A stretch of DNA of 31,047 bases from a virus: positions 1-31,047 of IMG/VR virus record IMGVR_UViG_3300037041_000385; one strand, written 5' to 3'. Made by a program: the position numbers and the translations under genes. This document shows, one piece after another, positions 1 to 31,047 of the stretch; within the stretch, counting starts at the first letter, position 1; each line of letters begins with the position of its first letter. The notes beneath the pieces were generated by a model. That model was not told the origin of the DNA. It worked only from the letters and a program-made list of their open reading frames with translations, and did no database searches.

Positions 1-138
1 ACAGAGCTATCATGGAAATTCTATTGCGTGAAAGTTGATGGCGCGAAATTAGACCATGAGGATGTGATAAAACTATTTGGTGGGTGGAATCCTGCGTTTT
101 GCTCAGAGCATGAAATCGCGCTTTACATACAAGACAAT
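1..138. repeat. Terminal overlap, left copy (circular genome)
   Basis: Bases 13-138 are identical to 30922-31047. Extending to base 1 (30910) adds three mismatches at window positions 6, 9 and 12, all third-codon changes that keep the same amino acids (T-E-L-S-W). This is the signature of a circular or circularly permuted genome whose contig ends overlap, with the two ends coming from slightly different members of the phage population. A physical direct terminal repeat is less likely but not excluded. Confidence 0.9.
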
Positions 139-192
139 TACACGCTGTTTGAAGATTACGAAATCACATACACTTACATAGACATCGAATGA
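1..192 (+). CDS. 3' part of a small hypothetical protein interrupted by the contig join
   Basis: This is the C-terminal 63 codons of a 71-aa protein whose first eight codons lie at 30886-30909; joining the two ends of the window restores one open frame. It ends in TGA at 190-192, overlapping the next ATG by four bases (ATGA), so the two are probably translationally coupled. The protein is acidic and rich in aromatic residues near the end (EDYEITYTYIDIE), with no signal peptide or membrane segment. I recognise no family. Its place at the head of a run of small early genes suggests an accessory early function, which is inference from position only. Confidence 0.75.
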   Translation, partial: TELSWKFYCVKVDGAKLDHEDVIKLFGGWNPAFCSEHEIALYIQDNYTLFEDYEITYTYIDIE

Positions 193-524
193 AAACGAAA
201 AAACACAGCCGAATTAAGCAAATAAAAAAGCGCCTTAGCTTCAAGACTTACAATGAAAACCACTATTTCGATATTTGCCCACAAGAAGTATTTGAGAAAA
301 ACCGACACGGAAAAATCGCAGCATGGCGGCATTTAGGTTTGGTTTGGGCTACCTTAGCAACTGGCAACGCATCAGAGGCGCAAAGACGTTTGAACTTGCA
401 GAATCATTGCGCGGTTTCTTTGTACGCTCAGCAAAGGTTTATCAATATGCTCGATGGCTTTCCTGACCCTGACTTTCAAGATGCTTACGAAACTTTATTA
501 AACCACATTAAGAATGAAAATTGA
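189..524 (+). CDS. DnaA domain IV-like small DNA-binding protein
   Basis: A 111-aa protein with a very basic N-terminus (about residues 1-20, many K/R) followed by a helical region. Residues about 46-88 (WRHLGLVWATLATGNASEAQ, then LNLQNHCAVSLYAQQRF) follow the layout of DnaA domain IV: an RH-start helix, a helix-turn-helix, then an NH-x-x-V segment resembling the DHTTV DnaA-box signature. The AAA+ domain of real DnaA is absent, so this would be a stand-alone box-binding module. It sits 1.2 kb from a candidate origin in a replication operon, which fits a role in initiation or in interfering with host DnaA. The homology is remote and judged by eye. Confidence 0.45.
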   Translation: MKTKKHSRIKQIKKRLSFKTYNENHYFDICPQEVFEKNRHGKIAAWRHLGLVWATLATGNASEAQRRLNLQNHCAVSLYAQQRFINMLDGFPDPDFQDAYETLLNHIKNEN

Positions 525-801
525 ACACAACAATACAAAGATTGCGTACTACTTAAAGCAGTTATTTCAGTCGCCTTTCTACGTACCTCGCGATATGGGT
601 GCGTATGATGAGCATCAATGGCGACAAGCAAGGGCAATATTTCGGGAAATGCAAAGCATAAACGAAGATGCGATACTAAGTAATGGCAACGAAACTTGGG
701 AGAATATCCACTTGAAGCCATACGGACTTCACACTGATAACATTCACATCGAATCAGATGGCACGTGTATAATTACATTAACAGCAAAATCTAAGGTATG
801 A
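514..801 (+). CDS. Hypothetical early protein
   Basis: A 95-aa protein starting inside the 3' end of the previous gene (11-base overlap) and ending with an ATGA overlap with the next, so it belongs to a tightly coupled early operon. The N-terminal half looks helical (KIAYYLKQLF, EHQWRQARAIFREMQSI), and the last 30 residues look like beta strands (NIHIESDGTCIITLTAKSKV). There is no cysteine cluster, signal peptide or membrane segment. I do not recognise a family. Confidence 0.7.
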   Translation: MKIEHNNTKIAYYLKQLFQSPFYVPRDMGAYDEHQWRQARAIFREMQSINEDAILSNGNETWENIHLKPYGLHTDNIHIESDGTCIITLTAKSKV

Positions 802-1067
802 ATAGCGACATCCTAAACAAAGTAATACGCGCTCAGGTGTTAGCGCAGTTACTACTCGAGCAGTTGGACGAACTCGAAATGACTGATAAGGTTTGGAAGA
901 TGCAAGCAAAGAAATTCGGCGCTCAGGCAATTCGCACTGGTGAATCAATGGTTAATATGCTCACGGGGTCTTTGAACTGCTTAGAATCGCAATCGTACGT
1001 CAATTCATGCGACTATGTTAGGCAACGAGTTGATGAAATTAATTTAGAGATTTCACCAACGGATTAG
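798..1067 (+). CDS. Hypothetical helical early protein
   Basis: An 89-aa, probably all-helical protein (VIRAQVLAQLLLEQLDELEM and following), with leucine-rich heptad-like spacing in the first 30 residues that suggests a short coiled coil or dimer. It starts in an ATGA overlap with the gene before and is the last gene before a 158-base gap that contains a promoter and a structured RNA, so it probably closes the small early operon. No enzymatic motif is seen and the function is unknown. Confidence 0.7.
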   Translation: MNSDILNKVIRAQVLAQLLLEQLDELEMTDKVWKMQAKKFGAQAIRTGESMVNMLTGSLNCLESQSYVNSCDYVRQRVDEINLEISPTD

Positions 1068-1076
1068 ATTTATTTG

Positions 1077-1084
1077 TATATTTG
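1077..1084 (+). promoter_or_regulatory. Bacteroidetes -7 box (TATATTTG)
   Basis: TATATTTG fits TAnnTTTG exactly and lies 10 bases after the stop at 1067, at the start of a non-coding gap. Only TTTC (1051-1054) is found where TTTG would be expected, so the -33 element is weak. The predicted start near 1090 falls just before the structured RNA. Confidence 0.5.
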
Positions 1085-1089
1085 CAGCG

Positions 1090-1184
1090 AGGTTGTGGTC
1101 TGACTTAAGCAACTAAAAGAAGTTATTGAAGCTCGATAATGAAGTAAGAAGTCAGACCCTTACGGATTTATCGGGCTTTTCTTA
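1090..1184 (+). ncRNA. Candidate structured RNA or leader with pseudoknot-like pairing
   Basis: This non-coding stretch holds two long pairings. GGTCTGACTT (1097-1106) pairs perfectly with AAGTCAGACC (1149-1158). GCTCGATAA (1131-1139) pairs with TTATCGGGC (1168-1176) with one G-U. The second helix starts inside the loop of the first and ends outside it, so they form either an H-type pseudoknot or two competing folds. The second is followed at once by CTTTTCTT, as in a terminator or attenuator. A promoter box lies just upstream and a gene starts at 1226. It could be a stable small RNA or the cis-acting leader of the replication operon. Confidence 0.5.
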
Positions 1185-1200
1185 TGTACTAAAGTTTGTT

Positions 1201-1215
1201 TGTTTTCTGAAAACA
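1201..1215. promoter_or_regulatory. 15-bp inverted repeat before gene 1226 (operator or start-site hairpin)
   Basis: TGTTTTCTGAAAACA is a perfect 6+3+6 inverted repeat ending 10 bases before the ATG at 1226. It could be a dimer-binding operator or a small hairpin near the ribosome site. No partner protein can be assigned from sequence. Confidence 0.3.
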
Positions 1216-1225
1216 TTCACAAGTT

Positions 1226-1468
1226 ATGGTAAAAGTATTTTTTTACGGGTCACAAAAAAGTGAAACATGTGACACACAACTATCTGTAAAATGCACAAAC
1301 TCAATGGAGATACTTATTGAGATTGTTGATGGTGAATCTAATAGGGATTTAAATATAATTCTAGACAGAACTACAGCAATCAAGTTTCATAGGGAGTTGA
1401 AAAAACAAATTGCATCGGCTGCTATACCGTCTGATTTTAATGTTTGGAATGAATCTGATAAAATTTAA
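1226..1468 (+). CDS. Hypothetical small protein of the replication operon
   Basis: An 80-aa protein with an alternating beta pattern in the first 50 residues (MVKVFFYGSQ, EILIEIVDG, LNIILDRTTAI) then a helix (IKFHRELKKQIA). It could be a small beta-sheet binding protein, but no family is recognised. It is the first gene after the structured leader at 1090-1184 and the inverted repeat at 1201-1215, and the next gene starts five bases after its stop, so it is likely co-transcribed with the replication genes. Confidence 0.65.
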   Translation: MVKVFFYGSQKSETCDTQLSVKCTNSMEILIEIVDGESNRDLNIILDRTTAIKFHRELKKQIASAAIPSDFNVWNESDKI

Positions 1469-1472
1469 CGAC

Positions 1473-2225
1473 ATGGCAGCAGGAAAAAAATCTTTTGTAC
1501 TCTATTCAGACCAAAAAGAATTGTTTGAATCGCTACCTGACGAACAAGCAGGAAAGTTGATAAAACACATTTTTAAATACGTCAATGATGAAAACCCAAT
1601 AAGCGAAGACGCTTTGGTGAATTTGGCGTTTATATCTGTCAAGGCATCACTAAAGCGCGACCTACAAAAATGGGAAAAACAAGTTGAGCAACGTTCGGCA
1701 GCTGGAAAAGCGAGCGCAGAAAAGCGTAAACAATCGTTAACGGAAAGCAACGAAAAGCAACGACCGTTGGAAGTCGTTAACGAAACGCAACGAAACCCAA
1801 CTGATAGTGTAAGTGATAGTGTAAGTGTTAATGTAAATGATACTGATATAAATAATATACCCCAAACCCCTAAAGGGGATTCTTATTTGTACGATAATTT
1901 TGAGCCAAACTTAGAAAGGCTTTTGAATCAAATTAATTATGCGTTTGGTAAAAAGTATCAAAAGATTAGTGATAAGGTTAAAGCGAAATACAAAGTATTG
2001 CTTAAATCTCACAAATGGGTTGATATTAAAAACGCGATTAATGCAGTCAAAGACGATAAATTTCACATTGATAGCGGTTACAAATACGCCACGCCTGAGT
2101 TTTTTAGCCGACCTGAAAAAATAGATATGTACGGGTTTAAGTCTGAGATTGAACAAGAGTACACTGGCGAAAACGCGTTGCTTGTGAACAACATGAATAA
2201 ATACCTTAAAGCAGGACAGTCATGA
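1473..2225 (+). CDS. DUF6291-like phage replication protein
   Basis: This 250-aa protein has three parts. Residues about 1-85 (KKSFVLYSDQKELFESLPDE and following, ending in RDLQKWEKQVEQRSAAGKAS) match my recollection of DUF6291, found at the head of replication modules in Bacteroidetes phages. A low-complexity linker follows (TDSVSDSVSVNVNDTD). The C-terminal ~80 residues (YAFGKKYQKISDKVKAKYKV, then YATPEFFSRPEKI) resemble the conserved C-terminal domain of phage DnaD/initiator-like proteins. The ATG at 1473, four bases after the previous stop, was chosen over an upstream ATG at 1410 because homology begins at AAGKKSFVLY. The next gene, an ATPase, starts in a 4-base overlap, so an initiator or helicase-loader role is likely. 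Confidence 0.7.
   Translation: MAAGKKSFVLYSDQKELFESLPDEQAGKLIKHIFKYVNDENPISEDALVNLAFISVKASLKRDLQKWEKQVEQRSAAGKASAEKRKQSLTESNEKQRPLEVVNETQRNPTDSVSDSVSVNVNDTDINNIPQTPKGDSYLYDNFEPNLERLLNQINYAFGKKYQKISDKVKAKYKVLLKSHKWVDIKNAINAVKDDKFHIDSGYKYATPEFFSRPEKIDMYGFKSEIEQEYTGENALLVNNMNKYLKAGQS
1734..1878. other. Candidate replication origin inside the DUF6291-like gene
   Basis: Within the linker-coding part of the gene, TCGTTAACG occurs at 1734-1742 and again at 1774-1782, 40 bp apart. CGTTAACG is palindromic, and each copy is followed by GCAACGAAA-type direct repeats. Next come tandem GATAGTGTAAGT units (1803-1826), an AT-rich run (about 1839-1859) and a CCCC-TAAA-GGGG hairpin (1867-1878). Iterons plus an AT-rich segment inside an initiator gene is the arrangement of the lambda O/ori region. 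Function is inferred. Confidence 0.45.
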
Positions 2226-3232
2226 TACTAAAGAGCGGACATAGCACAAAGTATCTTAGCGACTATCTCGATGGTAAAATACAGATGGGTTTGGGCTTAG
2301 GGTGTGAACTTGACGAACATCTGAGATACAAGAAAGGGCAGCTTAATTTCTTTTTAGGGCATGACAACGTAGGTAAGTCTTATTTCATGAAATGGTATTT
2401 CTTAGCCTTAGCAACAAATCACGGGCTTAAATTCTGTTTGTTTATGGATGAAGATTATCACGGTAAAGTCATGCGCGATTTGGTGCAAATGTACACTGGT
2501 AAACCGTTCATGAGTTTATCACACAAAGAAGTTCGCAGGGCTGAGATGAAATTAGAAACATTCTTTTCGTTTATTGACAATTCCAAAAGATACGAACCCA
2601 AAGAAATAACTGATTTGTTTTTAGAATCACAAAGCGATGTTTTGCTAATTGACCCGTGGAATGCATTGAAAATTGAGATGAGTTACGGGGATAATTACAA
2701 CGTGCTGAATGAATTGAAAATGATAACAAAGAACACGGATAAATCAATCTACATTAACTTACATCCAACAAGTGCAAGCGGACGTTTAGGGGCTGTTTAT
2801 CCTAAAGACCACCAATGGGCAGGACAAGTTCGACTACCTTTGAAATCCGATGCGGAGGGCGGTAAAGCGTTTGCAAACAAAGCAGATGACTTTGTTGTTA
2901 TTCACAGATTAACAAGCCACCCCGATATGTGGAAGCATACGCTTGTCGAGGTGGTTAAGGTTAAGGACGTGGACACTGGAGGTAAGCCGACAATGTTTGA
3001 AACTCCCGTGATGTTGGATTATAACTTTGGATGCGGTTTCTTAGTAGGACATCAAAGAATCGACGTAATTAAACGACCTGAGCCACCAAAACAAGCAGCG
3101 GTTTTTGAAGATAAAAAAGACGCAGTTTCAAGTTGGAAGCCTGACTTTGACAACGAAAAGCAATTGCCACCAACAGACAAGAAAGTGTTTAACGACCCAG
3201 ATGATATTTGGGACACAATACCGCAACCATAA
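2222..3232 (+). CDS. RecA-fold replicative ATPase (RepA/DnaB-like helicase)
   Basis: A 336-aa protein with a clear Walker A, GHDNVGKS at residues 46-53, and a Walker B, SDVLLIDP ending at D144-P145. A later segment around residues 190-230 (GQVRLPLKSDAEGGKAFANK, then ADDFVVIHRL) resembles the DnaB/RepA region where a conserved loop precedes the AD-x-v strand. Its length fits a single-domain hexameric helicase without the DnaB N-terminal domain. The C-terminal ~50 residues look disordered and proline-rich. It overlaps the DUF6291-like gene by four bases, so the pair probably acts as initiator/loader and helicase at the fork. RadA/KaiC-like ATPases share the fold, so the helicase role is inferred. 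Confidence 0.7.
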   Translation: MILKSGHSTKYLSDYLDGKIQMGLGLGCELDEHLRYKKGQLNFFLGHDNVGKSYFMKWYFLALATNHGLKFCLFMDEDYHGKVMRDLVQMYTGKPFMSLSHKEVRRAEMKLETFFSFIDNSKRYEPKEITDLFLESQSDVLLIDPWNALKIEMSYGDNYNVLNELKMITKNTDKSIYINLHPTSASGRLGAVYPKDHQWAGQVRLPLKSDAEGGKAFANKADDFVVIHRLTSHPDMWKHTLVEVVKVKDVDTGGKPTMFETPVMLDYNFGCGFLVGHQRIDVIKRPEPPKQAAVFEDKKDAVSSWKPDFDNEKQLPPTDKKVFNDPDDIWDTIPQP

Positions 3233-3522
3233 TGGAACTACTAAACAGAATACTCGCAAAGACAGCGGTAACGAATGCTCAGGCAATCATTACTGATATG
3301 ACAAATAGGATTGAAGCTAAAGACCCGAATCACGAAATCATATCGCGAAATAGAGTTTTATGCGATGACCTTCATGCAACCCGTTTATTCTTGATGGATA
3401 CGGAGAATGAAATTAGAACGCTTAGAAATATGCTGTTAATTTCCGAATCAAAAAACATTGAATATCAACAAGAAATCACTAACTTGCAGGCTCAAAACAA
3501 AGAGTTGATGGACTTGATATAA
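3232..3522 (+). CDS. Hypothetical coiled-coil protein
   Basis: A 96-aa protein. The start at 3232 (TAATG, sharing one base with the previous stop) was chosen over an in-frame ATG eight codons upstream because it gives the usual stop-start coupling. Nearly the whole protein is predicted helical; about residues 50-95 (TENEIRTLRNMLL, YQQEITNLQAQNKELMDLI) have clear heptads, so it probably forms a coiled coil. It sits between the helicase-like ATPase and NinG. Its function is unknown; a structural partner of the replication complex is one possibility. Confidence 0.65.
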   Translation: MELLNRILAKTAVTNAQAIITDMTNRIEAKDPNHEIISRNRVLCDDLHATRLFLMDTENEIRTLRNMLLISESKNIEYQQEITNLQAQNKELMDLI

Positions 3523-3530
3523 CGGGAAAA

Positions 3531-4070: not shown

Positions 4071-4404
4071 AAAAGTAGAATTGCTGGTGCAAGCGTATCG
4101 AGATGCAAACCTGCAAGATGGAAACGAACTAAATGAACTGATGCGCAATTTGGGCGGTGTTTTAGCTTATTTGGAAACACTTAGAGCAACCGTGCATGAT
4201 AACTTTCAAAGGGAAATATTTAAACTCACTAAGGAAGGCAAAACCGTTTCCCGTGCTGAAAACGAAGCCCACGTTACATATCCACAAATGTATCAACTTC
4301 GCAGGATAATGGATGCAGGTTACAAAGTTCACCATGCTTTGGGCTTGCATTTGGCATATCTAAAACATGAGAGAAACGCTGTGAATAGAGGGCATACGAC
4401 ATAA
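4057..4404 (+). CDS. Hypothetical helical protein of the recombination module
   Basis: A 115-aa protein that starts 14 bases inside the end of ninG. It appears almost entirely alpha-helical (NELNELMRNLGGVLAYLETL, MYQLRRIMDAGYKVHHALGL), with a conserved-looking middle (SRAENEAHVTYPQMYQLRR). Similar small helical proteins sit beside annealing-protein genes in many phages, but I cannot name the family. It is the last gene before a strong promoter at 4441-4470, so it probably ends the replication transcript. Confidence 0.65.
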   Translation: MNEIEKVELLVQAYRDANLQDGNELNELMRNLGGVLAYLETLRATVHDNFQREIFKLTKEGKTVSRAENEAHVTYPQMYQLRRIMDAGYKVHHALGLHLAYLKHERNAVNRGHTT

Positions 4405-4440
4405 TTTTAAAAAAAAATAAAAAATATTTTTGCTTTTTTG

Positions 4441-4470: not shown

Positions 4471-4501
4471 CTGCATAAAACAAAACAAAAAACAAAGTAT
4501 T

Positions 4502-4720: not shown

Positions 4721-4729
4721 AATCAAAAC

Positions 4730-4756: not shown

Positions 4757-4776
4757 AATCAAAAAACAAAAACAAG

Positions 4777-7036: not shown

Positions 7037-7642
7037 ATGCAGCTATCTGACTTAAAACCAAACCCGAACAACCCTCGAATTATCAAAGATGATAAGTTCA
7101 AGAAGTTGGTTAAGTCAATCGAGGAGTTCCCCGAAATGATGGCAAAGCGTCCGATTGTGTGCGTTACTGATGTGGATGGTAAGATATACCCACTTGGTGG
7201 TAATATGCGTTTAAAAGCGCTGCAAGAGTTGAAATACAAAGAAGTGCCTGATGAATGGGTGCAGATGGCAGATGAATGGACTGAGGAGCAGCGCAGGGAG
7301 TTTGTGATTAAAGATAACGTTGGCTTTGGTGAGTGGGATTGGGAGCAGTTAGCGAATGAATGGGATGCTGAGAAGTTGGAAGAATGGGGGTTGGAAGTTG
7401 GAGGGTTTGATTTAGATAGCGATGAATTAGGAACGGATTTTACTTTGCCAGACGGAGACAAAGCACCGTTTCAACAAATGACTTTTACGTTAGCAGATGA
7501 ACAAGCGGAACAAATAAAAAATGCTATTTCAGATATTAAAGAAACGGAAGAGTATAAGTACACAGAAACAATGGGCAACGAAAACAGCAACGGAAATGCA
7601 CTATATTTAATTATTATGCAATGGGCAGAGCAAAAGAAATAA
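7037..7642 (+). CDS. ParB/Srx-like N-terminal domain protein
   Basis: A 201-aa protein opening with the ParB-N pattern: MQLSDLKPNPNNPRIIKDDK at residues 1-20, RPIVCVTDVDGKIYPLGGNM near 37-56 (the GGNMR position of the ParB GxxR box), and helices to about residue 110. There is no partition helix-turn-helix or ParA partner, so segregation is unlikely. Similar domains accompany phage DNA-modification enzymes. This gene overlaps the Mom-like gene by 22 bases, suggesting the pair acts together on phage DNA. Residues 140-201 are a separate helical domain (FTLADEQAEQIKNAISDIK, ALYLIIMQWAEQKK). Confidence 0.75.
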   Translation: MQLSDLKPNPNNPRIIKDDKFKKLVKSIEEFPEMMAKRPIVCVTDVDGKIYPLGGNMRLKALQELKYKEVPDEWVQMADEWTEEQRREFVIKDNVGFGEWDWEQLANEWDAEKLEEWGLEVGGFDLDSDELGTDFTLPDGDKAPFQQMTFTLADEQAEQIKNAISDIKETEEYKYTETMGNENSNGNALYLIIMQWAEQKK

Positions 7643-8349
7643 TAGTTAAAGTAATTCCATCTAAAATTGCAAATGAGTTTGTAAAAAAAAATCACTATTC
7701 AGGTAAGGTAGCGGCAACTGGATTGATATGTTTTGGAGCGTTTTTAGACAATAAAATAATAGGAGTTGCACAATGGGGAAGACCTATAAATAAATATTTG
7801 CATTTACACTTAATTGAAAATACAAAGTGGAATGATTTTTTAGAATTAAATAGATTAGTTTGTATTGATGACACACCAAAATATACAGAGAGTAGATTTA
7901 TTAAAATATGTTTATTGTTAATTAAAAAAAATGCGCCACAAGTAAAATGGGTTATGAGTTTTGCAGATGCTACTCAATGCGGAGACGGCACAATTTATAG
8001 AGCAAGTGGTTTTGTATTGACAAACATAAACGATAGTAAGCAATTATATGAATTACCTAACGGAGACACTTTACATTTAATGGGTTTACAAGGTGGACAG
8101 CACGGAGCATTAAGAAAAAAAATGTTAGAGAGTGGTTATGGTAATGCTAAAAAATATATGGTTGAAGTTTTAAAAGGTAAGCCGTTAGTAGGTAAACAAT
8201 TAAAATACATTTACCTAATAGATAAAACTTGCAAGATTACCGTTCCAATATTACCATTTAGTAAAATAGATGAAATGGGTGCAGGAATGTATAAAGGAAA
8301 AAAAGTATCTTTGCAAGAACGAAAAGAAATACAAGCGCAAGAAGTGTAA
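7621..8349 (+). CDS. Mom-like GNAT-fold DNA hypermodification protein
   Basis: A 242-aa protein resembling the phage Mu Mom family. Landmarks are FVKKNHYSGKV (residues 20-30), the strand pair ICFGAFLDNKIIGVAQWG (36-53), FLELNRLVCIDDTPKYTESR (73-92), VKWVMSFADATQCGDGTIYR (108-127) and ASGF. In Mu, Mom converts adenine to a carbamoylmethyl form and protects phage DNA from many restriction enzymes. The gene is markedly richer in A/T third positions (AAA, ATA, TTA) than its neighbours, suggesting separate origin. Its last bases overlap the tRNA by 15, and it follows a ParB-like gene that may help target it. The family call is strong; the exact base modification is inferred. Confidence 0.75.
   Translation: MGRAKEIIVKVIPSKIANEFVKKNHYSGKVAATGLICFGAFLDNKIIGVAQWGRPINKYLHLHLIENTKWNDFLELNRLVCIDDTPKYTESRFIKICLLLIKKNAPQVKWVMSFADATQCGDGTIYRASGFVLTNINDSKQLYELPNGDTLHLMGLQGGQHGALRKKMLESGYGNAKKYMVEVLKGKPLVGKQLKYIYLIDKTCKITVPILPFSKIDEMGAGMYKGKKVSLQERKEIQAQEV
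8306..8313 (+). promoter_or_regulatory. -7 box (TATCTTTG) upstream of the tRNA
   Basis: TATCTTTG followed by C matches the best -7 boxes here and lies inside the end of the Mom-like gene, 21 bases before the tRNA. A -33 TTG is not evident. If active it would give the tRNA and terminase genes their own start near 8320. Confidence 0.45.
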
Positions 8350-8405
8350 TGGTTGCACGTTAAATATTCCAATTTAAAGGAGGGGTTCGATTCCACCTTT
8401 GCGCT
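8335..8405 (+). tRNA. tRNA-Gly(UCC) with an 8-nt anticodon loop
   Basis: The cloverleaf is: acceptor GCGCAAG (8335-8341) with TTTGCGC (8398-8404, one G-U); D-stem GTGT/GCAC (8344-8347, 8355-8358) with loop AATGGTT; anticodon stem TTAAA/TTTAA (8360-8364, 8373-8377); T-loop TTCGATT (8386-8392). The loop TATTCCAA has eight bases rather than seven; U-UCC-AA aligns with bacterial glycine tRNAs, giving anticodon UCC with an extra base on its 5' side. Glycine identity features (G1-C72, C2-G71, G3-C70, C35, C36, U73) are all present. The T-stem pairs only as GGGG/CC-A-CC with an odd A at 8395. CCA is not encoded. It overlaps the previous stop by 15 bases. Confidence 0.65.
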
Positions 8406-8430
8406 CAAAATAAACAGCGATAAAACAGCG

Positions 8431-8835
8431 ATGCCAAAACCTGAAAACATAATAGACAAGCAGTTCACAAAAGGACAAAGCGGAAACCCAAACGGGAGAC
8501 CGAAAAAGATTGAAACAATTTTGAAGGAGCACTTTTTGGATGAGCACAACTTGAAGCTATCAAAGTCGCAAGTTGGTGACATTATAACCGTTATTTTAGG
8601 TAAGACCAAATCGCAGTTAGTTGAGATGGCAAAGAATGACGAGTTACCGTTTTGGATTAGCTTAATAGCGAAGAAAGCACAAAGAGACTTTGAGAAGGGC
8701 AGCATACATATTTTGGATGTTCTATTCGACAGAGTGTATGGCAAACCAAAAGAGGAAGTTACTCAGACTATTCAACAAGTTGAAATATTCAAAGGCATCG
8801 ATTTAAGTGTTAAAGAAGACGACAGCACAGATTAA
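8431..8835 (+). CDS. terS: Small terminase subunit-like protein
   Basis: A 134-aa protein beginning MPKPENIIDKQFTKGQSGNP then NGRPKKIETILKEHF. The FTKGQSGNPNGRPK box is typical of DUF5681-type proteins encoded next to large terminases in Bacteroidetes phages. The rest is helical, as expected for a TerS oligomer that recognises the packaging site. The ATG at 8431 was chosen because the frame upstream runs through the tRNA. It overlaps the large subunit by 29 bases. DNA recognition is inferred from family and position. Confidence 0.7.
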   Translation: MPKPENIIDKQFTKGQSGNPNGRPKKIETILKEHFLDEHNLKLSKSQVGDIITVILGKTKSQLVEMAKNDELPFWISLIAKKAQRDFEKGSIHILDVLFDRVYGKPKEEVTQTIQQVEIFKGIDLSVKEDDSTD

Positions 8836-9976
8836 GATTGCAGCCCTTCGCAAACGTGTAAGGGTGGTGCAGGGTGGCTCGTCAAGTTCAAAGACGTTTT
8901 CAATTATTCCTTTGCTTATACACTACGCAAACAAACACCCGAATAAAGAAATAAGCATCGTTTCTGAAAGCATCCCACATTTAAGGCGTGGCGCTATTCG
9001 GGACTTCGTTAAGATTATGGAGTGGATAGGTTTGATGGATTATTCAGCATGGAATAAATCAACACTAACTTACAACTTTGCAAACGGTTCATTTATCGAG
9101 TTCTTTTCGGGAGACCAGCCCGACAAGATGCGAGGCGCAAGGCGTGATGTGTTATTCGTGAATGAGGCTAATAATATCAATTGGGAAACCTACTATCAGT
9201 TAGCAATCAGAACACGTGAATTTATCTATATTGACTACAATCCAACGAGCGAGTTTTGGGCGCACACCGAGTTAGTAAACCAAAAAGATACCGACTTTAT
9301 TATACTTACATACAAGGATAACGAAGCCTTAGAAGCGTCGATTATTAACGAGTTTAAAAAAGCAGAGGTCAAAGCCAAAACAAGTGCGTATTGGGAGAAT
9401 TGGGTTAAGGTTTATGTTTATGGCGAAATCGGTAGTTTGCAGGGCGTTGTGTTCAATAACTGGCATCAATGCGACTATGTACCCGAACACGCTAAATTGT
9501 TAGGATATGGATTAGACTACGGTTATAGAAACGACCCCACAGCATTGGTGGCTATTTGGTACGCTGACAATACATACTACTTAGATGAGTTGATATATCA
9601 AACTGGGCTGCTCAACAAAGAGATTAGCAACAAAATGAAGGCGCTGAATGTTGACCCATATCAGTCAATTATTGCTGATAGTGCCGAGCCAAAGTCAAAC
9701 GCTGAATTACGAGTTGAAGGGTGGCGTATATTGGATGCGAAAAAAGGCGCTGATTCAGTTGTTTACGGTGTTTCAAAGATGCAGGAACTTGATTTGCGCG
9801 TAACTAAGCGAAGCCTTAATCTAATAAAAGAGTTCAGGAATTACACATGGGCTACGGATAGGGATGGCAACCCAATGAACAAGCCTATTGATGCTTATAA
9901 CCATGCCATTGATGCGATACGTTACTACTTCCAAACGGTTACATACGCACCCGACACGCCTCGCATGATTTGGTAA
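8807..9976 (+). CDS. terL: Large terminase subunit
   Basis: A 389-aa protein using GTG at 8807 inside terS. The ATPase half has the terminase-type Walker A RVVQGGSSSSKT (residues 19-30) and Walker B DVLFVNEA (114-121), with the catalytic E at 120. The nuclease half has the RNase H-like acidic motifs GYGLDYGYRNDPTALV (D237), IIADSAEPKS (near 290) and DAYNHAIDAIRYYF (near 367). It translocates genomic DNA into proheads and cuts it. All motifs look intact, though it is short for the family. It is followed by a short gap with a start-proximal promoter motif. Confidence 0.92.
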   Translation: MLKKTTAQIKIAALRKRVRVVQGGSSSSKTFSIIPLLIHYANKHPNKEISIVSESIPHLRRGAIRDFVKIMEWIGLMDYSAWNKSTLTYNFANGSFIEFFSGDQPDKMRGARRDVLFVNEANNINWETYYQLAIRTREFIYIDYNPTSEFWAHTELVNQKDTDFIILTYKDNEALEASIINEFKKAEVKAKTSAYWENWVKVYVYGEIGSLQGVVFNNWHQCDYVPEHAKLLGYGLDYGYRNDPTALVAIWYADNTYYLDELIYQTGLLNKEISNKMKALNVDPYQSIIADSAEPKSNAELRVEGWRILDAKKGADSVVYGVSKMQELDLRVTKRSLNLIKEFRNYTWATDRDGNPMNKPIDAYNHAIDAIRYYFQTVTYAPDTPRMIW

Positions 9977-10365: not shown

Positions 10366-11832
10366 ATGGCAGTTACATTAATCAGTTCACCAGAGGTATT
10401 TCATCCTGCGTACAATCAATCTTATTTCGTGTTTGATTCAGACGATTCAGCAGAAAACGGATTCAGATATGTCGTAGATGTCATTGTAAGTAGCGCAGTC
10501 GTGGCAACCTACAAGATACGTCCTTTGCCGAATACCTTATACGGTGAAGTTGACATCGCTAAGGTAGTTCAATCTTTGCTGAGTAAGGACTTTCAATTAG
10601 CAGACACATACAACGCAACGGGGCATTTCGTTAATTACACGCTTCAAATTGATGAAGAGTACTTTGTTAACCATCCTTTTGACTTGGCACTTGCTGCGAG
10701 TGGTGGTGTGTTGTTCACTTGGCCGAACTTTAACAACCTTACAATCAACCCTGATGGCGGTGTGAAAACACAACTTACAAGCGCAACGCTCCCACCGTTT
10801 GCAATTGGTGATGTGATTAACGTGCAGCAGGATGTTGTATTAAATTCAGCTATTGAGGGCGTGCATACGGTGTTGGATATTTATTTAGCGAGTGGCGTTT
10901 ACTATATTGTTTTAGATTTACCTTGGGTTGGTGGTGGTATTATTGCAATGGAGGGAGTGTTGACTTATGCCAACGGACTTAAGGCACGGTTCACGGGGCT
11001 AACAACAACCCCGTTCACAGCGTTCAGAGGGGCGTTTGGCTTCGCTTCATTCCCTAACTATTTAGCATCCGACTACCTTATTGATGGGGCTACAAAGAAA
11101 CTACTCACAACGCTTCCTGATGGTGTTCGTATATCGCGAAACACGATGACTAAGTTTGCGTGCAGGAAACCAAGCGCAGCCCGTTATGCGGTGTTTAATT
11201 TGGAAGGTGATTTGTATAGATTTCAAATCGCGAGTGGCACGGTGGTTAACTTTGATGCCATACCGACAAACGCGAATATAGAAGATTGGTGGAACGGTGC
11301 TGCATGGGTGGCAAACCCCGATGATGTGGATGCTGCTCTGGCTTTGTTGCCAAGTTATGAATTGACCCTCAGAACGTCTGCTTTGACAATCATGAGCCAA
11401 ACAAGAGTGATAACGCTATACTCAGAGTGCGATTTCTTTGACAAATACGACATAACATTTATGGATAGGTTAGGTTCGTATATCACTATACCATTTTACA
11501 AAGCGGATTCAATTAGTGCCAGTGTGGAGCGTTCCGAATTGAATAGAAAACTGCCAAACGATTACAGTCTTTTGGATGCCGGTATGGATTCATACCACAT
11601 TGAAGAAACGCTATCTTATACGGTTAACTCAGGGCAGTTGAGCCAAACCGAATACTACTACATGAGGGAGTTGTTAAGCACACCACAAGCGTTTGTCAGC
11701 ATAAACGGAGCGCCACAACAACGCATCATTATAACATCGAGCAACTTTGATTTGCTTAGACAAAGAACGTCAAAGCAACGTAACTTAGCGATTCAGTTTA
11801 AAATGAGTACTCAAGACGAAATAAACGGATAG
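10366..11832 (+). CDS. Virion protein, probably distal tail component
   Basis: A 488-aa protein, beta-rich throughout (for example SSAVVATYKIRPLPNTLYGE, YYIVLDLPWVGGGIIAMEGV), with no coiled coil or membrane segment. A central region (about residues 140-225) reads like a small beta-barrel insert. The C-terminal 130 residues (SYHIEETLSYTVNSGQLSQT, RIIITSSNFDLLRQRTSKQR) resemble the ends of Bacteroidetes phage tail proteins of this size. It lies next to a 951-aa tail protein and the tape measure gene, so a distal tail or baseplate part is the best guess. No enzymatic motif is seen. Confidence 0.5.
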   Translation: MAVTLISSPEVFHPAYNQSYFVFDSDDSAENGFRYVVDVIVSSAVVATYKIRPLPNTLYGEVDIAKVVQSLLSKDFQLADTYNATGHFVNYTLQIDEEYFVNHPFDLALAASGGVLFTWPNFNNLTINPDGGVKTQLTSATLPPFAIGDVINVQQDVVLNSAIEGVHTVLDIYLASGVYYIVLDLPWVGGGIIAMEGVLTYANGLKARFTGLTTTPFTAFRGAFGFASFPNYLASDYLIDGATKKLLTTLPDGVRISRNTMTKFACRKPSAARYAVFNLEGDLYRFQIASGTVVNFDAIPTNANIEDWWNGAAWVANPDDVDAALALLPSYELTLRTSALTIMSQTRVITLYSECDFFDKYDITFMDRLGSYITIPFYKADSISASVERSELNRKLPNDYSLLDAGMDSYHIEETLSYTVNSGQLSQTEYYYMRELLSTPQAFVSINGAPQQRIIITSSNFDLLRQRTSKQRNLAIQFKMSTQDEING

Positions 11833-26648: not shown

Positions 26649-27708
26649 TATTTTAAAGGGTTACCAAGAAAAAGGCATGAATGTCATCAAGGTTCGATTG
26701 CATCAAGATGAGATTGATGTCATAAATAACCTTAGAACGCTTTGGAATGAATCTGTGCAGTCTGGAATCAATCCGCAAGAGGTTAAGCACGGGTGGATTA
26801 AGAACAAAACAAACAGCTTATTTTTAAAAAATCATTCATACAAAGAGCCTGAAACATTACAAATTGAAAAGACCTTTGAAAAGTTAATTGAGCAATTAAA
26901 AGACCACGCACCCCAATATCCTGACATTAAACGAAAGCAATCTACAAACGGTCATTTGTTTGTCATTTCGCCAGCCGATGTTCACATAGGTAAGCTATGC
27001 AGAGCGTTTGAAAGTGGCGAAGATTATAACAGTCAGATAGCTGTTCAAAGAGTAAAAGACGGGGTGCAAGGATTGCTCAACAAGGCAAGCGGTTTTGAAA
27101 TCGACCAAATACTATTAGTTATTGGTAACGATATTTTGCACACGGACACCCCGAAAAGAACAACGACATCGGGAACTTCTCAAGACACGGATGGGATGTG
27201 GTTTGACAATTTCAATACAGCGGTCATGCTTTATGTGGATATAATCGAAACGCTCTTATCGGTTGCTGATGTTCATGTTGTTTACAACCCATCAAATCAT
27301 GATTACATGAGTGGTTATTTTACTGCCCAACTAATTGAAGCGTATTTCCGAAACAACAAAAATATAACCTTTGATTGCAGCATAGCGCATCGAAAGTATT
27401 TTACCTACGCTTTAAATTTAATTGGAACTACTCATGGTGATGGTGCGAAGACAGACGATTTACCTAATTTGATGGCGCATGAATCACAGAACTGGAGTGT
27501 TTGCAAGCATAGGTACATATACACGGGTCATCTTCATCACAAGGTGAGCAAAGATTATTTGAGCGTGTGTGTTGAAACACTAAGAAGTCCAAGCGGCTCA
27601 GATAGTTGGCATCACAGAAACGGATATCAACACGCTCCAAAAGCAATTGAAGGGTTTTTGCATGACAAGTTACATGGTCAGATAGCCCGTTTTACTCATT
27701 TGTTTTAA
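26635..27708 (+). CDS. Calcineurin-like metallophosphoesterase
   Basis: A 357-aa protein. Residues 1-95 are helical and basic (MKIRNILKGYQEKGMNVIKV). The catalytic domain follows with metallophosphoesterase motifs: SPADVHIGK (near 114-122), VIGNDILHTDTP (GND, near 162-173), YNPSNHD (near 220-226), GTTHGDG (near 264-270) and YTGHLHHK (GHLHH, near 297-304). The metal ligands D, H, N and H all look present. Relatives in phages may act as nucleases or nucleotide/phosphate hydrolases; SbcD is the best-known DNA-acting member, but no SbcC partner is seen here. It converges with the minus-strand gene, overlapping by 17 bases. Confidence 0.75.
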   Translation: MKIRNILKGYQEKGMNVIKVRLHQDEIDVINNLRTLWNESVQSGINPQEVKHGWIKNKTNSLFLKNHSYKEPETLQIEKTFEKLIEQLKDHAPQYPDIKRKQSTNGHLFVISPADVHIGKLCRAFESGEDYNSQIAVQRVKDGVQGLLNKASGFEIDQILLVIGNDILHTDTPKRTTTSGTSQDTDGMWFDNFNTAVMLYVDIIETLLSVADVHVVYNPSNHDYMSGYFTAQLIEAYFRNNKNITFDCSIAHRKYFTYALNLIGTTHGDGAKTDDLPNLMAHESQNWSVCKHRYIYTGHLHHKVSKDYLSVCVETLRSPSGSDSWHHRNGYQHAPKAIEGFLHDKLHGQIARFTHLF

Positions 27709-27853
27709 TTGCCTTAACTGCTTCGCGCACTATTTGGCTTCCGCTTACTTTGCGACCCTTCGCTAATGTTTCAATGCTTTCTATTGTTTCGGCATCAAGA
27801 TAAAATAGTTTGTTTTGGCCGCCGATTAGAGTAGGTCTGATTTTCTTTTCCAT
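27692..27853 (-). CDS. Ribbon-helix-helix (CopG/Arc-like) regulator, the only minus-strand gene
   Basis: A 53-aa protein: MEKKIRPTLIGGQNKLFYLD then AETIESIETLAKGRKVSGSQ and IVREAVKAIKTNE. A short strand (KLFYLD) followed by two helices with a small turn (SGSQIVREAVKAI) is the ribbon-helix-helix fold, which dimerises and binds operators through the strand. It is transcribed leftward against the rest of the genome, from a promoter overlapping that of the rightward gene at 27932. It probably represses itself and the divergent transcript. Its 3' end overlaps the phosphoesterase gene by 17 bases. Confidence 0.75.
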   Translation of the reverse strand: MEKKIRPTLIGGQNKLFYLDAETIESIETLAKGRKVSGSQIVREAVKAIKTNE

Positions 27854-27865
27854 GTTTTTTTTTGA

Positions 27866-27873
27866 CAAAGATA
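27866..27873 (-). promoter_or_regulatory. Leftward -7 box for the RHH gene
   Basis: On the minus strand, 27873-27866 reads TATCTTTG, an exact TAnnTTTG, 12 bases before the ATG at 27853. A -33 TTTG is not evident. It lies 7 bp from the -33 element of the rightward promoter, so the two would compete. Confidence 0.5.
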
Positions 27874-27880
27874 AATTTTT

Positions 27881-27913
27881 TTTGTATATGTATTAATAAG
27901 TTATATATATTTG
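27881..27913 (+). promoter_or_regulatory. Rightward Bacteroidetes promoter (TTTG, 21 bp, TATATTTG)
   Basis: TTTG (27881-27884) and TATATTTG (27906-27913) with a 21-bp spacer match both promoter elements. The predicted start is near 27920, about 12 bases before the ATG at 27932. The AT-rich spacer contains TATATGTATTAATAAG, possibly the RHH operator. Confidence 0.7.
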
Positions 27914-27931
27914 CACAAAAAATAATTAACA

Positions 27932-28090
27932 ATGAACACAATTAGAACTAAATTCGGACTATCTTATAAGGTAGCAGAAACAGATGCTGAGATTCAGCAC
28001 AAGATTAGCAACGCGACTACTTTTATTTATTTGACTTCGGCAAGTGGTGAGCGTATAATGTTAAACGTGGCGCAAATAGTACTCTTATGA
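27932..28090 (+). CDS. 52-aa hypothetical protein under the divergent promoter
   Basis: ATG at 27932 opens 52 codons: MNTIRTKFGLSYKVAETDAE, then strand-forming IYLTSASGERIMLNVAQIV. It ends in an ATGA overlap with the 3D-domain gene, and a consensus promoter lies just upstream, both of which support a real gene. No family is recognised. It is the first product of the rightward transcript likely controlled by the RHH protein. Confidence 0.6.
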   Translation: MNTIRTKFGLSYKVAETDAEIQHKISNATTFIYLTSASGERIMLNVAQIVLL

Positions 28091-28428
28091 TTCACCTAAT
28101 AACACCAATCATTTTCAACTTCACAATCTTGCAAGCATCGTTTTACAACCCCGTACCCGAGCAATGTTGGGGCGACCCTACCATAACAGCATCAGGCGCG
28201 AAGATAGACTTAGACAACGTTCAACAATGGTGCGCTTTAAGTCGCGATTTGTTGGAGCGTTGGGGCGGTCAGTATGCCTATGGCGATACTTTGACACTAT
28301 GGACGTTGCAAGGCGTGGAGAAATGGGTTGTAAGGGATTGCATGAACGCACGATTCACGAAAAAAATAGACTTCCTTATGCCCGTTGGGAGTAGAAAAAA
28401 CGGGCGATTTGCATTAATAATAAAATAG
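28087..28428 (+). CDS. 3D-domain (double-psi beta-barrel) cell-wall protein
   Basis: A 113-aa protein. After a hydrophobic start (LITPIIFNFTILQAS, a possible signal or anchor) it reads FYNPVPEQCWGDPTITASGA, WCALSRDLLERWGGQYAYGD and WVVRDCMNARFTKKIDFLMP. This matches the 3D domain named for its three aspartates, related to the catalytic barrel of MltA lytic transglycosylases; Asp positions lie in YGDT, VVRDC and KIDF. It may cut glycan strands as a second lysis enzyme or help peptidoglycan crossing at infection. Its last 20 codons lie in a 56-bp repeat also found after the methyltransferase, suggesting its 3' end was replaced when that gene arrived. Confidence 0.7.
   Translation: MIHLITPIIFNFTILQASFYNPVPEQCWGDPTITASGAKIDLDNVQQWCALSRDLLERWGGQYAYGDTLTLWTLQGVEKWVVRDCMNARFTKKIDFLMPVGSRKNGRFALIIK
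28363..28418 (+). repeat. 56-bp direct repeat, left copy, flanking the methyltransferase
   Basis: Identical to 29337-29392 except for three bases. It encodes the end of the 3D-domain protein (KIDFLMPVGSRKNGRFALI) and contains a stem-loop, GCCCGTT pairing with AACGGGC, which may act as a weak terminator. Confidence 0.9.
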
Positions 28429-28434
28429 AATGAA

Positions 28435-29331
28435 ATGGGAAAGACTGATTTATTTGGAAATGAAATAAAAGAAGAATTGAGTTTAGCTGATAAATATTTA
28501 CTATGCCCAACAACAGTATTGAGTAAACGCGACCCAAAATGGTCAGAGTTAAAAAGGAAGTGGTTAAAATTAGGAATAAAATCCGAATTAGGAAGGATTG
28601 AAAAAATAAATAAAGAATTAAGAGGTTCATATAAAGATAATTATCCTTATATGGATAGATTTAAATACGAAGCGGTTGGTGTTGGAAATACATTTTCAAT
28701 TTTTGACCCTGTTTTATGTGAAATAATATATAAATGGTTTTGTCCTGATAACGGATTAATACTTGACCCATTTGCTGGTGGCTCAGTTCGTGGAATTGTA
28801 GCAAATTACTTAGGGTATAAATACACTGGCATTGAATTAAGAGAAGAACAATGTATAAGTAATAGAGAACAATCTGTAAACATACTTGAAGTAAATAATC
28901 AACCACAATGGTATTGCGGAGATAGTGAACAAGTATTAGATGCTAAATGGAATATTGAATTTGATTTATTGTTTAGCTGTCCACCTTATATGAATTTAGA
29001 AGTTTACAGCGATTTGCCCGAAGACCTTAGTAATATGAATGATGATGCATTTATTACTAAATACAATTCAATAATTGATAAGAGTTGTAAACTTGTTAAG
29101 CGTGGCGGATATGCTGTATTTGTTGTTGGGGATTTGAGGGATAACAAAGGTTATCAGAAGGATTTTACAGGAATAACCAAACAAGCATTTATAAGAGCAG
29201 GAATGAAGTTGTACAATGAATTAATATTGGTTGAACCTGTTGGTTCTAAGGCAATGACATTAGAACGTGGGTTCAAGAACGGTAAACTTGCAAAAGTTCA
29301 TCAGAATGTTTACATATTCAAAAAACCATGA
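28435..29331 (+). CDS. DNA methyltransferase (N4-cytosine/N6-adenine type), AT-rich insert
   Basis: A 298-aa enzyme with AdoMet motif I LDPFAGGSVRG (residues 110-120), an acidic end of the next strand TGIEL (131-135), a GD step (162-163) and motif IV SCPPY (181-185). Motif I before IV indicates alpha or gamma order. SCPPY, in place of DPPY, hints at N4-cytosine chemistry, but this is not decisive. Residues 20-60 (LSKRDPKWSELKRKWLKLGI) form a conserved N-terminal region seen in phage methylases paired with ParB-like proteins. Codon use is strongly A/T-ending, unlike its neighbours, and direct repeats flank it, both pointing to acquisition. It probably protects phage DNA from host restriction. 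Confidence 0.8.
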   Translation: MGKTDLFGNEIKEELSLADKYLLCPTTVLSKRDPKWSELKRKWLKLGIKSELGRIEKINKELRGSYKDNYPYMDRFKYEAVGVGNTFSIFDPVLCEIIYKWFCPDNGLILDPFAGGSVRGIVANYLGYKYTGIELREEQCISNREQSVNILEVNNQPQWYCGDSEQVLDAKWNIEFDLLFSCPPYMNLEVYSDLPEDLSNMNDDAFITKYNSIIDKSCKLVKRGGYAVFVVGDLRDNKGYQKDFTGITKQAFIRAGMKLYNELILVEPVGSKAMTLERGFKNGKLAKVHQNVYIFKKP

Positions 29332-29336
29332 GTAAT

Positions 29337-29392
29337 AAAATAGACTTCCTTATGCCCGTTGGGAAAAGAAAAAACGGGCGATTTGCTTTAAT
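29337..29392 (+). repeat. 56-bp direct repeat, right copy (leftover 3' end of the 3D-domain gene)
   Basis: This copy still reads as the C-terminus of the 3D-domain protein (KIDFLMPVGKRKNGRFALIL), now separated from it by the methyltransferase gene. It keeps the GCCCGTT/AACGGGC stem, with both differences from the left copy in the loop. It probably represents the original gene end before insertion. Confidence 0.85.
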
Positions 29393-29407
29393 TTTAAACA
29401 AAACAAT

Positions 29408-29827
29408 ATGAAAACAATCCTAATTTCCCTCGCAACGTTGACTTTGTTTTCCTGCGACCCCGTAAAAAAACACCAGCGACTTGTTAAGCGTTATCCATAC
29501 GTTCACACGTCTGAAATCACAACCGTTCACGACACGTTTGAGGTGATAGTCCCACAAGTTAAAGTTGACACCGTTACAAGCGTTAATTTCGACACGGTAA
29601 TAATTGAGCGCGATAGGCTTCGCGTTCAGCTTGTAAGGGTGCATGATTCAATCTTCGTGGATGCTGAGTGCAAAGCCGACACGATTACTGTAACACGGAC
29701 AATTGAAGTGCCTACCTATGCGAGTGAAAAGCCTCGCAGCAATTGGTTTGGCAAATTAATTTCGTTTGCTTGGATAGTATTCTTTTTTGTTTTGTTGTAT
29801 TTTGTTTGGAGGGGTGCAAGAAAGTAG
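29408..29827 (+). CDS. Putative unimolecular spanin (u-spanin)
   Basis: A 139-aa protein with a lipoprotein signal (MKTILISLATLTLFSC, lipobox LFSC with C16), a beta-rich periplasmic region (residues about 35-110: TVHDTFEVIVPQVKVDTVTS, NFDTVIIERDRLRVQLVRVH) and a C-terminal transmembrane helix (LISFAWIVFFFVLLYFVW, about 117-134) followed by basic RGARK. A lipid-anchored N-terminus plus C-terminal inner-membrane helix is the u-spanin topology of T1 gp11, which fuses outer and inner membranes in the last step of lysis. The position near other lysis genes agrees. The Asp after the Cys would retain lipoproteins in the inner membrane of enterics, but that rule need not hold in Bacteroidetes. Confidence 0.7.
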   Translation: MKTILISLATLTLFSCDPVKKHQRLVKRYPYVHTSEITTVHDTFEVIVPQVKVDTVTSVNFDTVIIERDRLRVQLVRVHDSIFVDAECKADTITVTRTIEVPTYASEKPRSNWFGKLISFAWIVFFFVLLYFVWRGARK

Positions 29828-29835
29828 TATCTTTG
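29805..29835 (+). promoter_or_regulatory. Strong Bacteroidetes promoter (TTTG, 19 bp, TATCTTTG)
   Basis: TTTG (29805-29808), a 19-bp spacer and TATCTTTGC (29828-29836) match the consensus closely. It overlaps the end of the u-spanin gene, and the predicted start is near 29842. The only thing before the next terminator is about 25 bases of non-coding DNA. Confidence 0.65.
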
Positions 29836-29841
29836 CATCAC

Positions 29842-29893
29842 TTGTTTTTTTGATTAGGTTTGTTGAAGGCGCTCAGAAATGGGCGCTTTTTTT
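29842..29893 (+). ncRNA. Candidate ~50-nt small RNA between promoter and terminator
   Basis: A good promoter points into a region with no ORF that ends, within about 50 bases, in a rho-independent terminator. The transcript would be U-rich (ACTTGTTTTTTTGATTAGG), then the terminator hairpin. It could be a small regulatory RNA, or the attenuated leader of the operon starting at 29993. Confidence 0.4.
29866..29893 (+). terminator. Rho-independent terminator
   Basis: GCGCTC (29869-29874) pairs with GGGCGC (29881-29886, one G-U), extended by AAG with TTT, around a 6-nt loop AGAAAT, and is followed by seven T (29887-29893). It closes the lysis transcript and any small RNA from the promoter at 29805. 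Confidence 0.8.
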
Positions 29894-29910
29894 GTTTCTG
29901 CAAAAAAAAA

Positions 29911-29992
29911 TAAAATATTTTTGTTAAAATGTATTTCGTATATATATATGTATTACTTTTACACCATCAAACAAAACGAAAAAATAAAGATT
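29911..29992 (+). promoter_or_regulatory. Leader/promoter region B, duplicate of the one at 4404-4501
   Basis: Shared blocks with the 4.4 kb leader, in the same order, are A-run plus TAAAA, TATTTTTG, TTCGTATATATATAT, AACAAAAC, then AAAG and ATTATG. The -7 box here is TACTTTTA (29954-29961), weaker than TATCTTTG in copy A, so the duplicated promoters have probably diverged in strength. Confidence 0.55.
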
Positions 29993-30280
29993 ATGAAAAA
30001 TTTAGAAGTAGCAAAAAACTGGAACAAGTTGTCAAACTCTGACAAATTACAAATCATTGAAACGGCAATTGATATGTGCAACACAAATGAAGGCTTTTTA
30101 ATGCTTCGTTTGTGGTCAAAAGACAACTCATTGAGCGCTTATATCACAACAAAATTAGACAATCATCTTTGCGTTGAGGCTGTGTCTCAAAGCACTTTGT
30201 TTGATTTGTTTGGTGAAGACCACGATTTTCAAGAAGAGGACGCTGTTGTGATTTTAAAATGGATGAACGAGCAAATATAA
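29993..30280 (+). CDS. Small acidic protein, first gene of cassette B
   Basis: A 95-aa protein: a helical N-terminus (MKNLEVAKNWNKLSNSDKLQ, IIETAIDMC) and an acidic C-terminus (LFDLFGEDHDFQEEDAVVIL, KWMNEQI). The ATG at 29993 was chosen because the upstream extension of the frame lies in the promoter region and terminator. It holds the same place in its cassette as the 72-aa protein at 4502 but is not similar to it. Possible roles include binding a host protein; nothing specific can be claimed. Confidence 0.65.
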   Translation: MKNLEVAKNWNKLSNSDKLQIIETAIDMCNTNEGFLMLRLWSKDNSLSAYITTKLDNHLCVEAVSQSTLFDLFGEDHDFQEEDAVVILKWMNEQI

Positions 30281-30289
30281 AAACCAACA

Positions 30290-30313
30290 GGGGGGTGCGC
30301 ATCCGTAACGCAC
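30290..30313 (+). promoter_or_regulatory. RNA hairpin with CAUCCG loop, copy B
   Basis: A G-run (30290-30295), then GTGCG (30295-30299), loop CATCCG-TAA (30300-30308) and CGCAC (30309-30313), a perfect 5-bp stem. It ends 16 bases before the ATG at 30330. It shares the G-run and CATCCG loop with copy A at 4730-4753, but the stem bases differ while pairing is kept. Confidence 0.6.
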
Positions 30314-30329
30314 GAAAAAACAAGTAATT

Positions 30330-30521
30330 ATGAAAGCAAACAAGTACACTTCGCCAGAAGAAAAAAACATCAACTTATCTATTAACATCGCACTGATGGA
30401 GGTTGCAAACATTCTATCAGATAGGAGCATCGAATTAGCACGTTATCCAACGGATGCGGCCATTCAAAAAATAAAAACGCATACTGAAATTATTGAACTT
30501 TTAAAAACTAAAATGAAATGA
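30330..30521 (+). CDS. Hypothetical small helical protein
   Basis: A 63-aa protein, helical throughout (INLSINIALMEVANILSDRS, DAAIQKIKTHTEIIELLKTK), probably a two-helix hairpin. It follows the CAUCCG hairpin and ends in an ATGA overlap with the next gene. No family recognised. Confidence 0.65.
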   Translation: MKANKYTSPEEKNINLSINIALMEVANILSDRSIELARYPTDAAIQKIKTHTEIIELLKTKMK

Positions 30522-30898
30522 GAACACCAACACACGTAATCACATCGCAAGGTCAGTACTTTGGCGAAGTAGGTCACATAATCGCAGGGTCTAACAACCT
30601 TGTGAAAGTGACGTTTTTAATCCACAAAACAAAAAAGCCCGTTTTTATTCGACGTGAGGCGCTTTTACCGTTAAATCCATGTGACACTACTACTCAGGAA
30701 GTGAACGTCGCGCAAATCGAATCTGAGGCGGTTTACAAAGCGTTTATGGAAGTTATAAACGAACTTGCAGCCGAAAGCAAAACTTTGGAGCAATACAAAA
30801 ACGTCGCAGCGGTTCACTATGTTAAGGGCATAACCTTAGCCATTCAGCACATGAGTTCAAAAATCGCATTTAAAAACTACGAGCCATGCAAAAATTAG
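30518..30898 (+). CDS. Hypothetical early protein
   Basis: A 126-aa protein with a small beta domain first (THVITSQGQYFGEVGHIIAG, VKVTFLIHKTKKPVFIRREA), which could be an SH3- or Tudor-like barrel, then helices (SEAVYKAFMEVINELAAESK, YVKGITLAIQHMSSKIAF). It overlaps the junction gene by 13 bases. A barrel plus helix layout is common in small nucleic-acid or host-protein binders, but no assignment can be made. Confidence 0.65.
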   Translation: MRTPTHVITSQGQYFGEVGHIIAGSNNLVKVTFLIHKTKKPVFIRREALLPLNPCDTTTQEVNVAQIESEAVYKAFMEVINELAAESKTLEQYKNVAAVHYVKGITLAIQHMSSKIAFKNYEPCKN

Positions 30899-31047
30899 AG
30901 ATTTGGATTACAGAACTTTCGTGGAAATTCTATTGCGTGAAAGTTGATGGCGCGAAATTAGACCATGAGGATGTGATAAAACTATTTGGTGGGTGGAATC
31001 CTGCGTTTTGCTCAGAGCATGAAATCGCGCTTTACATACAAGACAAT
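30886..31047 (+). CDS. 5' part of the small hypothetical protein that crosses the contig join
   Basis: ATG at 30886 (inside the end of the previous gene) opens MQKLEIWITELSWKFYCVKV and runs off the window end in frame. Its continuation is at 1-192, and residues from T9 onward are the same as those read from base 1. The full product is 71 aa with no recognised family. This end and the start of the window differ only by synonymous bases. Confidence 0.75.
   Translation, partial: MQKLEIWITELSWKFYCVKVDGAKLDHEDVIKLFGGWNPAFCSEHEIALYIQDN
30910..31047. repeat. Terminal overlap, right copy
   Basis: Matches 1-138 with three differences near its left edge (30915, 30918, 30921), all synonymous; 30922-31047 is identical to 13-138. 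It shows that the sequence closes on itself. Confidence 0.9.

Follow-up and report, generated by a model that had tools for sequence, protein, structure and literature searches.

Complete or near-complete elimination of short recognition sites has been reported for roughly a tenth of viral genomes, predominantly those of non-temperate viruses (Rusinov et al. 2018, PMC6286503). Coliphages with hydroxymethylated DNA avoid few sites (2.4% versus 55.8%; PMC6286503). The single-stranded DNA coliphage phiX174 is wholly devoid of GATC, a lack that has been linked to mismatch repair (PMC5014478). Closer to the phage studied here is the isolated Bacteroides uniformis phage EMB1 (ON721384), which has a related terminase and has lost GATC (observed/expected 0/77), CTAG (0/67) and much of its GGCC (6/93).

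The window, by which is meant all 31,047 bp of IMG/VR record IMGVR_UViG_3300037041_000385 (GC 40.0%), comes from a tailed phage whose lineage is of Bacteroidota type. Like the phages surveyed by Rusinov et al. (2018), it is a dsDNA phage with observed/expected ratios below 0.1 for palindromic Type II sites, but it differs in that about ten distinct sites are gone from one 31 kb genome that also encodes a Mom protein. EMB1 differs from it in retaining CCGG (122/137) and CCNGG (135/93), while the account offered for phiX174 does not fit the loss of many sites seen here. The window is a strong new example of the known escape of phages from restriction enzymes.

The absence of GATC had been noted in a reading of the sequence by eye, and an exact count gave none from one end of the window to the other. 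The number expected was 108 from base composition, 72 from a first-order model and 91 from trinucleotides. When synonymous codons were shuffled in 40 selected reading frames, which cover 28,800 bp, with proteins and codon usage held constant, 83.6 ± 7.2 GATC were obtained, the lowest of 1000 runs having 62. Some 85 to 90 would be expected in 31 kb. The observed zero is therefore far from the near-expected count that had been named as the outcome contradicting the original prediction. GAT makes up 60% of all Asp codons, yet where the next base is C, Asp is encoded by GAC 50 times and by GAT never. Likewise, Ile codons preceded by G are ATT (86) or ATA (46) and never ATC, and no GATC straddles a codon junction (..GA/TC..) in the 40 reading frames. 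The loss of GATC is thus at the level of DNA and proceeds via synonymous codon choice.

Table 1. Depleted sites and the packaging and modification genes of the 31,047 bp window.
Feature	Position	Strand	Remarks
GATC, GGNNCC, GAATTC, AAGCTT	1..31047		All zero (exact counts)
CTAG	1361..1364, 18370, 24381		Only 3 in window, 46 expected
GGCC	10721..10724, 24619, 27817, 30458		Only 4 in window, 42 expected
CCGG	11579..11582, 15866, 22004		Only 3 in window, 34 expected
ParB-like protein	7037..7642	+	Overlaps Mom gene; N-terminal half similar to ParB-methyltransferase fusions (phrog_498)
Mom family protein	7621..8349	+	Match to PF25680 at E 2.8e-43; among solved structures, best match to 8bv8 (methylcarbamoylase Mom)
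Probable terminase small subunit	8353..8835	+	By position ahead of large subunit; bounds modification slot
Terminase large subunit	8807..9976	+	Query for finding relatives
DNA methyltransferase	28435..29331	+	PF01555, E 1.4e-8; phrog_12517

GATC is only one of the sites that are missing (Table 1). The scarcity of GGCC and CCGG had also been noticed by eye (about four and three), and these tallies agree with the exact counts of 4 and 3. Further depleted sites were found by a scan of degenerate palindromes and then re-tested with synonymous shuffles; GATC alone was named in advance, so borderline single motifs picked by the scan need care. Observed/expected counts in the shuffled frames were 2/37 for GGCC, 1/21 for GGNCC, 0/34 for GGNNCC, 3/25 for CCGG, 1/16 for CCNGG, 3/43 for CTAG, 1/24 for GASTC, 1/26 for CGSCG and 1/17 for RCATGY. 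If elimination is defined as observed/expected < 0.1 with at least 15 expected, all of these qualify together with GATC, except for CCGG, which at 0.12 is slightly over the limit. CCNNGG (7/27), AGCT (32/91) and CTNNAG (32/73) are partially depleted. The lost patterns match separate types of Type II enzyme, which we take to be those of HaeIII, Sau96I, NlaIV, HpaII, ScrFI and BfaI.

The edges of these losses are sharp. GG and CC separated by zero to two bases are almost absent, but GGN3CC is near expectation (34/41), as is CCN3GG (29/39) at the end of the corresponding CC..GG series. GCGC, TGCA and ACGT are near their expected counts in the window. Since neighbouring spacings and control palindromes are normal, it is discrete, enzyme-like sites that were removed, with base composition unchanged; synonymous shuffles, adjacent gaps and never-eliminated palindromes all show this specificity. 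Avoidance of hairpins was ruled out, as GG..CC with gaps of at least three, which are able to form hairpin loops, stand at a normal level.

One motif is over-represented. CTNAG is in about two-fold excess (145 versus 64 in the window; 138 versus 68 in synonymous shuffles), chiefly as CTSAG (83 versus 26 in the window). CTSAG is also about two-fold in excess in sister loci L003, L005, L008 and L174 (36/17, 27/13, 22/11 and 26/12). The excess of CTNAG is not due to the Mom or methyltransferase genes, because a 32 kb sister that lacks both shows it too.

Searching with the terminase gave 39 loci in IMG/VR. The nearest (L002 to L009 and L029; 75 to 90% terminase identity, from different metagenomes) have no GATC at any locus, and together with the remainder of sister record G311 they contain a single GATC in 126.6 kb, a total that is redundant and includes partial sister records. 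Relatives at 51 to 63% terminase identity show different patterns, such as loss of GGCC, GCGC and CGCG with GATC only reduced. Among the wider relatives, which are Bacteroidota-type phages, the palindromes that are missing differ from phage to phage, some losing CATG, CTNAG or GAWTC and others retaining GATC. GATC has been eliminated from 21 of 52 non-redundant loci, and GTAC, TGCA, AATT, TTAA, ATAT, TATA and GCGC from none. Forty-nine named phages matched the terminase at E < 1e-60 (phages of Flavobacterium, Elizabethkingia and Bacteroidales and two unassigned), and megablast of the window against named phages gave no match. Locus L003 (21 kb) has 13 CTAG, all within positions 1 to 2800 and none beyond, with GATC at zero throughout; this suggests that its first 2.8 kb is an imported module of different history.

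The phage had also been predicted to carry a Mom-like enzyme and a methyltransferase, and both are borne out by family matches (Table 1). The Mom product scores 148 bits against a Pfam cut-off of 27.1. It is of the same family as Mom of phage Mu, with about 34% identity over part of the protein, and differs in being ParB-linked. Mu Mom acts in the context (C/G)A(C/G)N(C/T), which does not include GATC. For the methyltransferase, PF01555 is the sole family above cut-off, the Dam-type family MethyltransfD12 was not matched, and the search of solved structures gave one weak match (2zie).

It had been supposed that avoidance and modification were layered. This holds only in the sense that the two co-occur. 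Sister G311 (32,102 bp, made up of loci L008 and L174) has 1 GATC against about 89 expected; it has the ParB gene, tblastn detected no Mom in either part, and nothing in it matches the methyltransferase of the window. As this sister avoids GATC equally without either gene, avoidance is independent of both. This sister, along with the comparison of phages with and without Mom, led us to reject Mom or the methyltransferase as a cause of avoidance or a substitute for it. GATC is eliminated in 16 of 34 Mom-bearing loci and in 5 of 18 without Mom, and the mean number of eliminated motifs is 2.8 and 2.0, respectively, a comparison that is confounded by host and by choice of locus. Phages whose Mom proteins are 90 to 98% identical range in GATC from 0/54 to 101/106, and L068, L083, L085, L102, L114 and other Mom-bearing loci eliminate CTNAG, GAWTC or CATG in a combination that differs from phage to phage. 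Mom-bearing loci avoid no fewer sites than others, unlike coliphages with hydroxymethylated DNA (PMC6286503). As Mom is, as far as is known, site-specific, the pattern in those coliphages is not directly contradicted. Avoidance and modification are separate features which merely coincide.

In its complement of sites, the mobile Mom gene resembles whichever genome carries it. CTAG occurs 3 times in the Mom genes of 33 CTAG-lacking carriers and 9 times in those of 11 normal carriers; for CATG, the figures are 1 in 18 lacking carriers and 24 in 31 normal ones. When removal of GATC from GATC-rich donors was considered, close Mom relatives proved to lack GATC even inside GATC-normal phages. The slot between the ParB-like gene and the terminase genes varies in content (7037-8835 in the window, 7872-9777 in L003 and 897-2855 in L010). 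In the window it holds Mom, and in sisters L003 and L009 a gene weakly similar to phrog_842, the T4-type beta-glucosyl-HMC-alpha-glucosyltransferase family (E 1.5e-6). L010 has at this place a fusion of ParB and methyltransferase, with a partial AdoMet synthetase gene next to it. It is possible, and we put it forward tentatively as the less probable view, that the lineage has two independent defences. One would be the erasure of nearly all short Type II sites, and the other a ParB-linked modification slot with exchangeable content (Mom in the window, the glycosyltransferase-like gene in sisters and the ParB-methyltransferase fusion in a more distant group). Modification would cover threats that erasure cannot, so that Mom would leave avoidance unrelaxed, at variance with the pattern reported for coliphages with hydroxymethylated DNA.

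A relative resident in a bacterial chromosome allows phage and host DNA to be compared directly. In Flavobacterium muglaense (locus L048, 48% terminase identity), there is no GATC and no CATG over about 31 kb, at approximately 116-147 kb of a 187 kb contig. Counts of both sites per 2 kb are ordinary on either side of this element, and the rest of the genome is normal too, showing that host composition fails to explain the loss in this relative. The same absence in host core genes had been named as a second outcome contradicting the original prediction; the host DNA beside this related element has GATC at a normal level. The approximate borders of the element are given by the zero-count block. 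Although its element is GATC-free, F. muglaense has neither the DpnII nor the MutH/Sau3AI family. As regards a non-temperate lifestyle, no integrase was identified among those reading frames of the window that were covered by the searches; end repeats are absent from the record.

A terminase search of 84,980 genomes gave mostly Bacteroidota matches (34 to 56% identity among Bacteroidota-type and stray relatives, 22% for the lowest hit), the best being 56%. Enzymes that cut GATC exist in Bacteroidia, though they are uncommon, each family being present in about 2 to 4% of 295 sampled genomes: the DpnII family in 9 (five near full length), MutH/Sau3AI in 11 and DpnI in 7. Seven of the MutH/Sau3AI matches are strong, with a full-length domain in frames of 441 to 514 amino acids, an architecture that we assume to be that of Sau3AI rather than of E. 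coli MutH. GATC restriction systems, proposed as something to look for in candidate hosts, thus belong to a minority of Bacteroidia, and in the 13 genomes that carry terminase relatives neither DpnII nor MutH/Sau3AI was found. Published systems include an MboI-like GATC system in Prevotella intermedia (PMC5608340) and, in Flavobacterium psychrophilum, HpaII (CCGG), ScrFI (CCNGG) and CGCG systems and a prevalent methyltransferase for GATC, with up to 12 to 15 systems per strain (PMC11837570). Some F. psychrophilum phages retain CCGG or CCNGG, so avoidance is not always a mirror of the host.

Other causes of the loss have to be weighed. A GATC-dependent process in host or phage was the alternative offered with the original prediction, and Dam/MutH mismatch repair, proposed for GATC-free phiX174 (PMC5014478), would be such a process. 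It is very unlikely here, since about ten further palindromes that have no role in mismatch repair are equally lost. Moreover, MutH-domain proteins are as rare in Bacteroidia, and as absent from the 13 terminase-relative genomes, as described above, and the strong matches have the frame length of Sau3AI, unlike E. coli MutH. The multi-site pattern of loss already weakens this alternative. Somewhat less improbable, though still unlikely, is methyl-directed restriction, in which the host or the phage methylates GATC, a DpnI-type enzyme cuts the methylated sites, and GATC is purged for that reason. The DpnI family does occur in Bacteroidia, and GATC is reduced in every one of 46 phages that infect hosts with Type IIM enzymes specific for GATC (PMC6286503). 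However, DpnI cuts only methylated GATC and so requires a second, methylating agent, a sister in which GATC is avoided to the same degree lacks the methyltransferase of the phage, and the other lost sites are left unexplained.

A bias in composition or mutation, or a GATC-poor composition inherited from the host, has nothing in its favour beyond the general variation of tetranucleotides and is hardly credible: the observed count lies > 9 standard units from both the Markov and the synonymous-codon null, adjacent gap lengths are normal, and the DNA of F. muglaense is GATC-normal beside a GATC-free element. We give equally little credence to an artefact of assembly or of a library prepared with a GATC cutter, even though the record derives from assembled metagenomic data. 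A single metagenome (3300042868) gives both L003 (GATC 0/65) and L062 (11/26), relatives without GATC were recovered from numerous metagenomes and from a cultured strain, and chance survival of a GATC-free stretch of 31 kb is not expected. The artefact is refuted by the element of cultured F. muglaense and by isolated phage EMB1.

By far the most probable explanation (about 0.88) is that the genome was purged under prolonged selection by the Type II restriction systems of its Bacteroidota hosts, one of them of DpnII/MboI or Sau3AI type. Restriction-driven purging is best supported because many independent sites are missing and the spacing at which loss stops is sharply defined, because the set of sites varies by lineage and because, in a host chromosome, only a phage-like element shows the loss. 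For the same reasons, the original suggestion that GATC was purged by GATC-cutting hosts remains the best supported, with the enzymes named as candidates. We infer restriction as the selecting agent, as well as the enzymes and the host. Selection on the DNA itself would have erased the recognition sites of Type II enzymes encountered by the lineage. Complete removal of GATC points to a lasting encounter with hosts that have enzymes of the DpnII/MboI or Sau3AI type. GGCC, GGNCC, GGNNCC, CCGG, CCNGG, CTAG, GASTC, CGSCG and RCATGY, which were almost completely removed, are each a kind of site that a separate Type II enzyme cuts. Loss of a site leaves the corresponding enzyme nothing to cut in incoming DNA.

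The missing sites may thus be read as a record of the restriction enzymes met by a phage lineage, even where the identity of the host is not known. With about ten sites, this record is unusually rich here; it varies among close lineages and could serve in host prediction. Full avoidance alongside a Mom enzyme bears on the question of when phages modify their DNA and when they erase sites from it.
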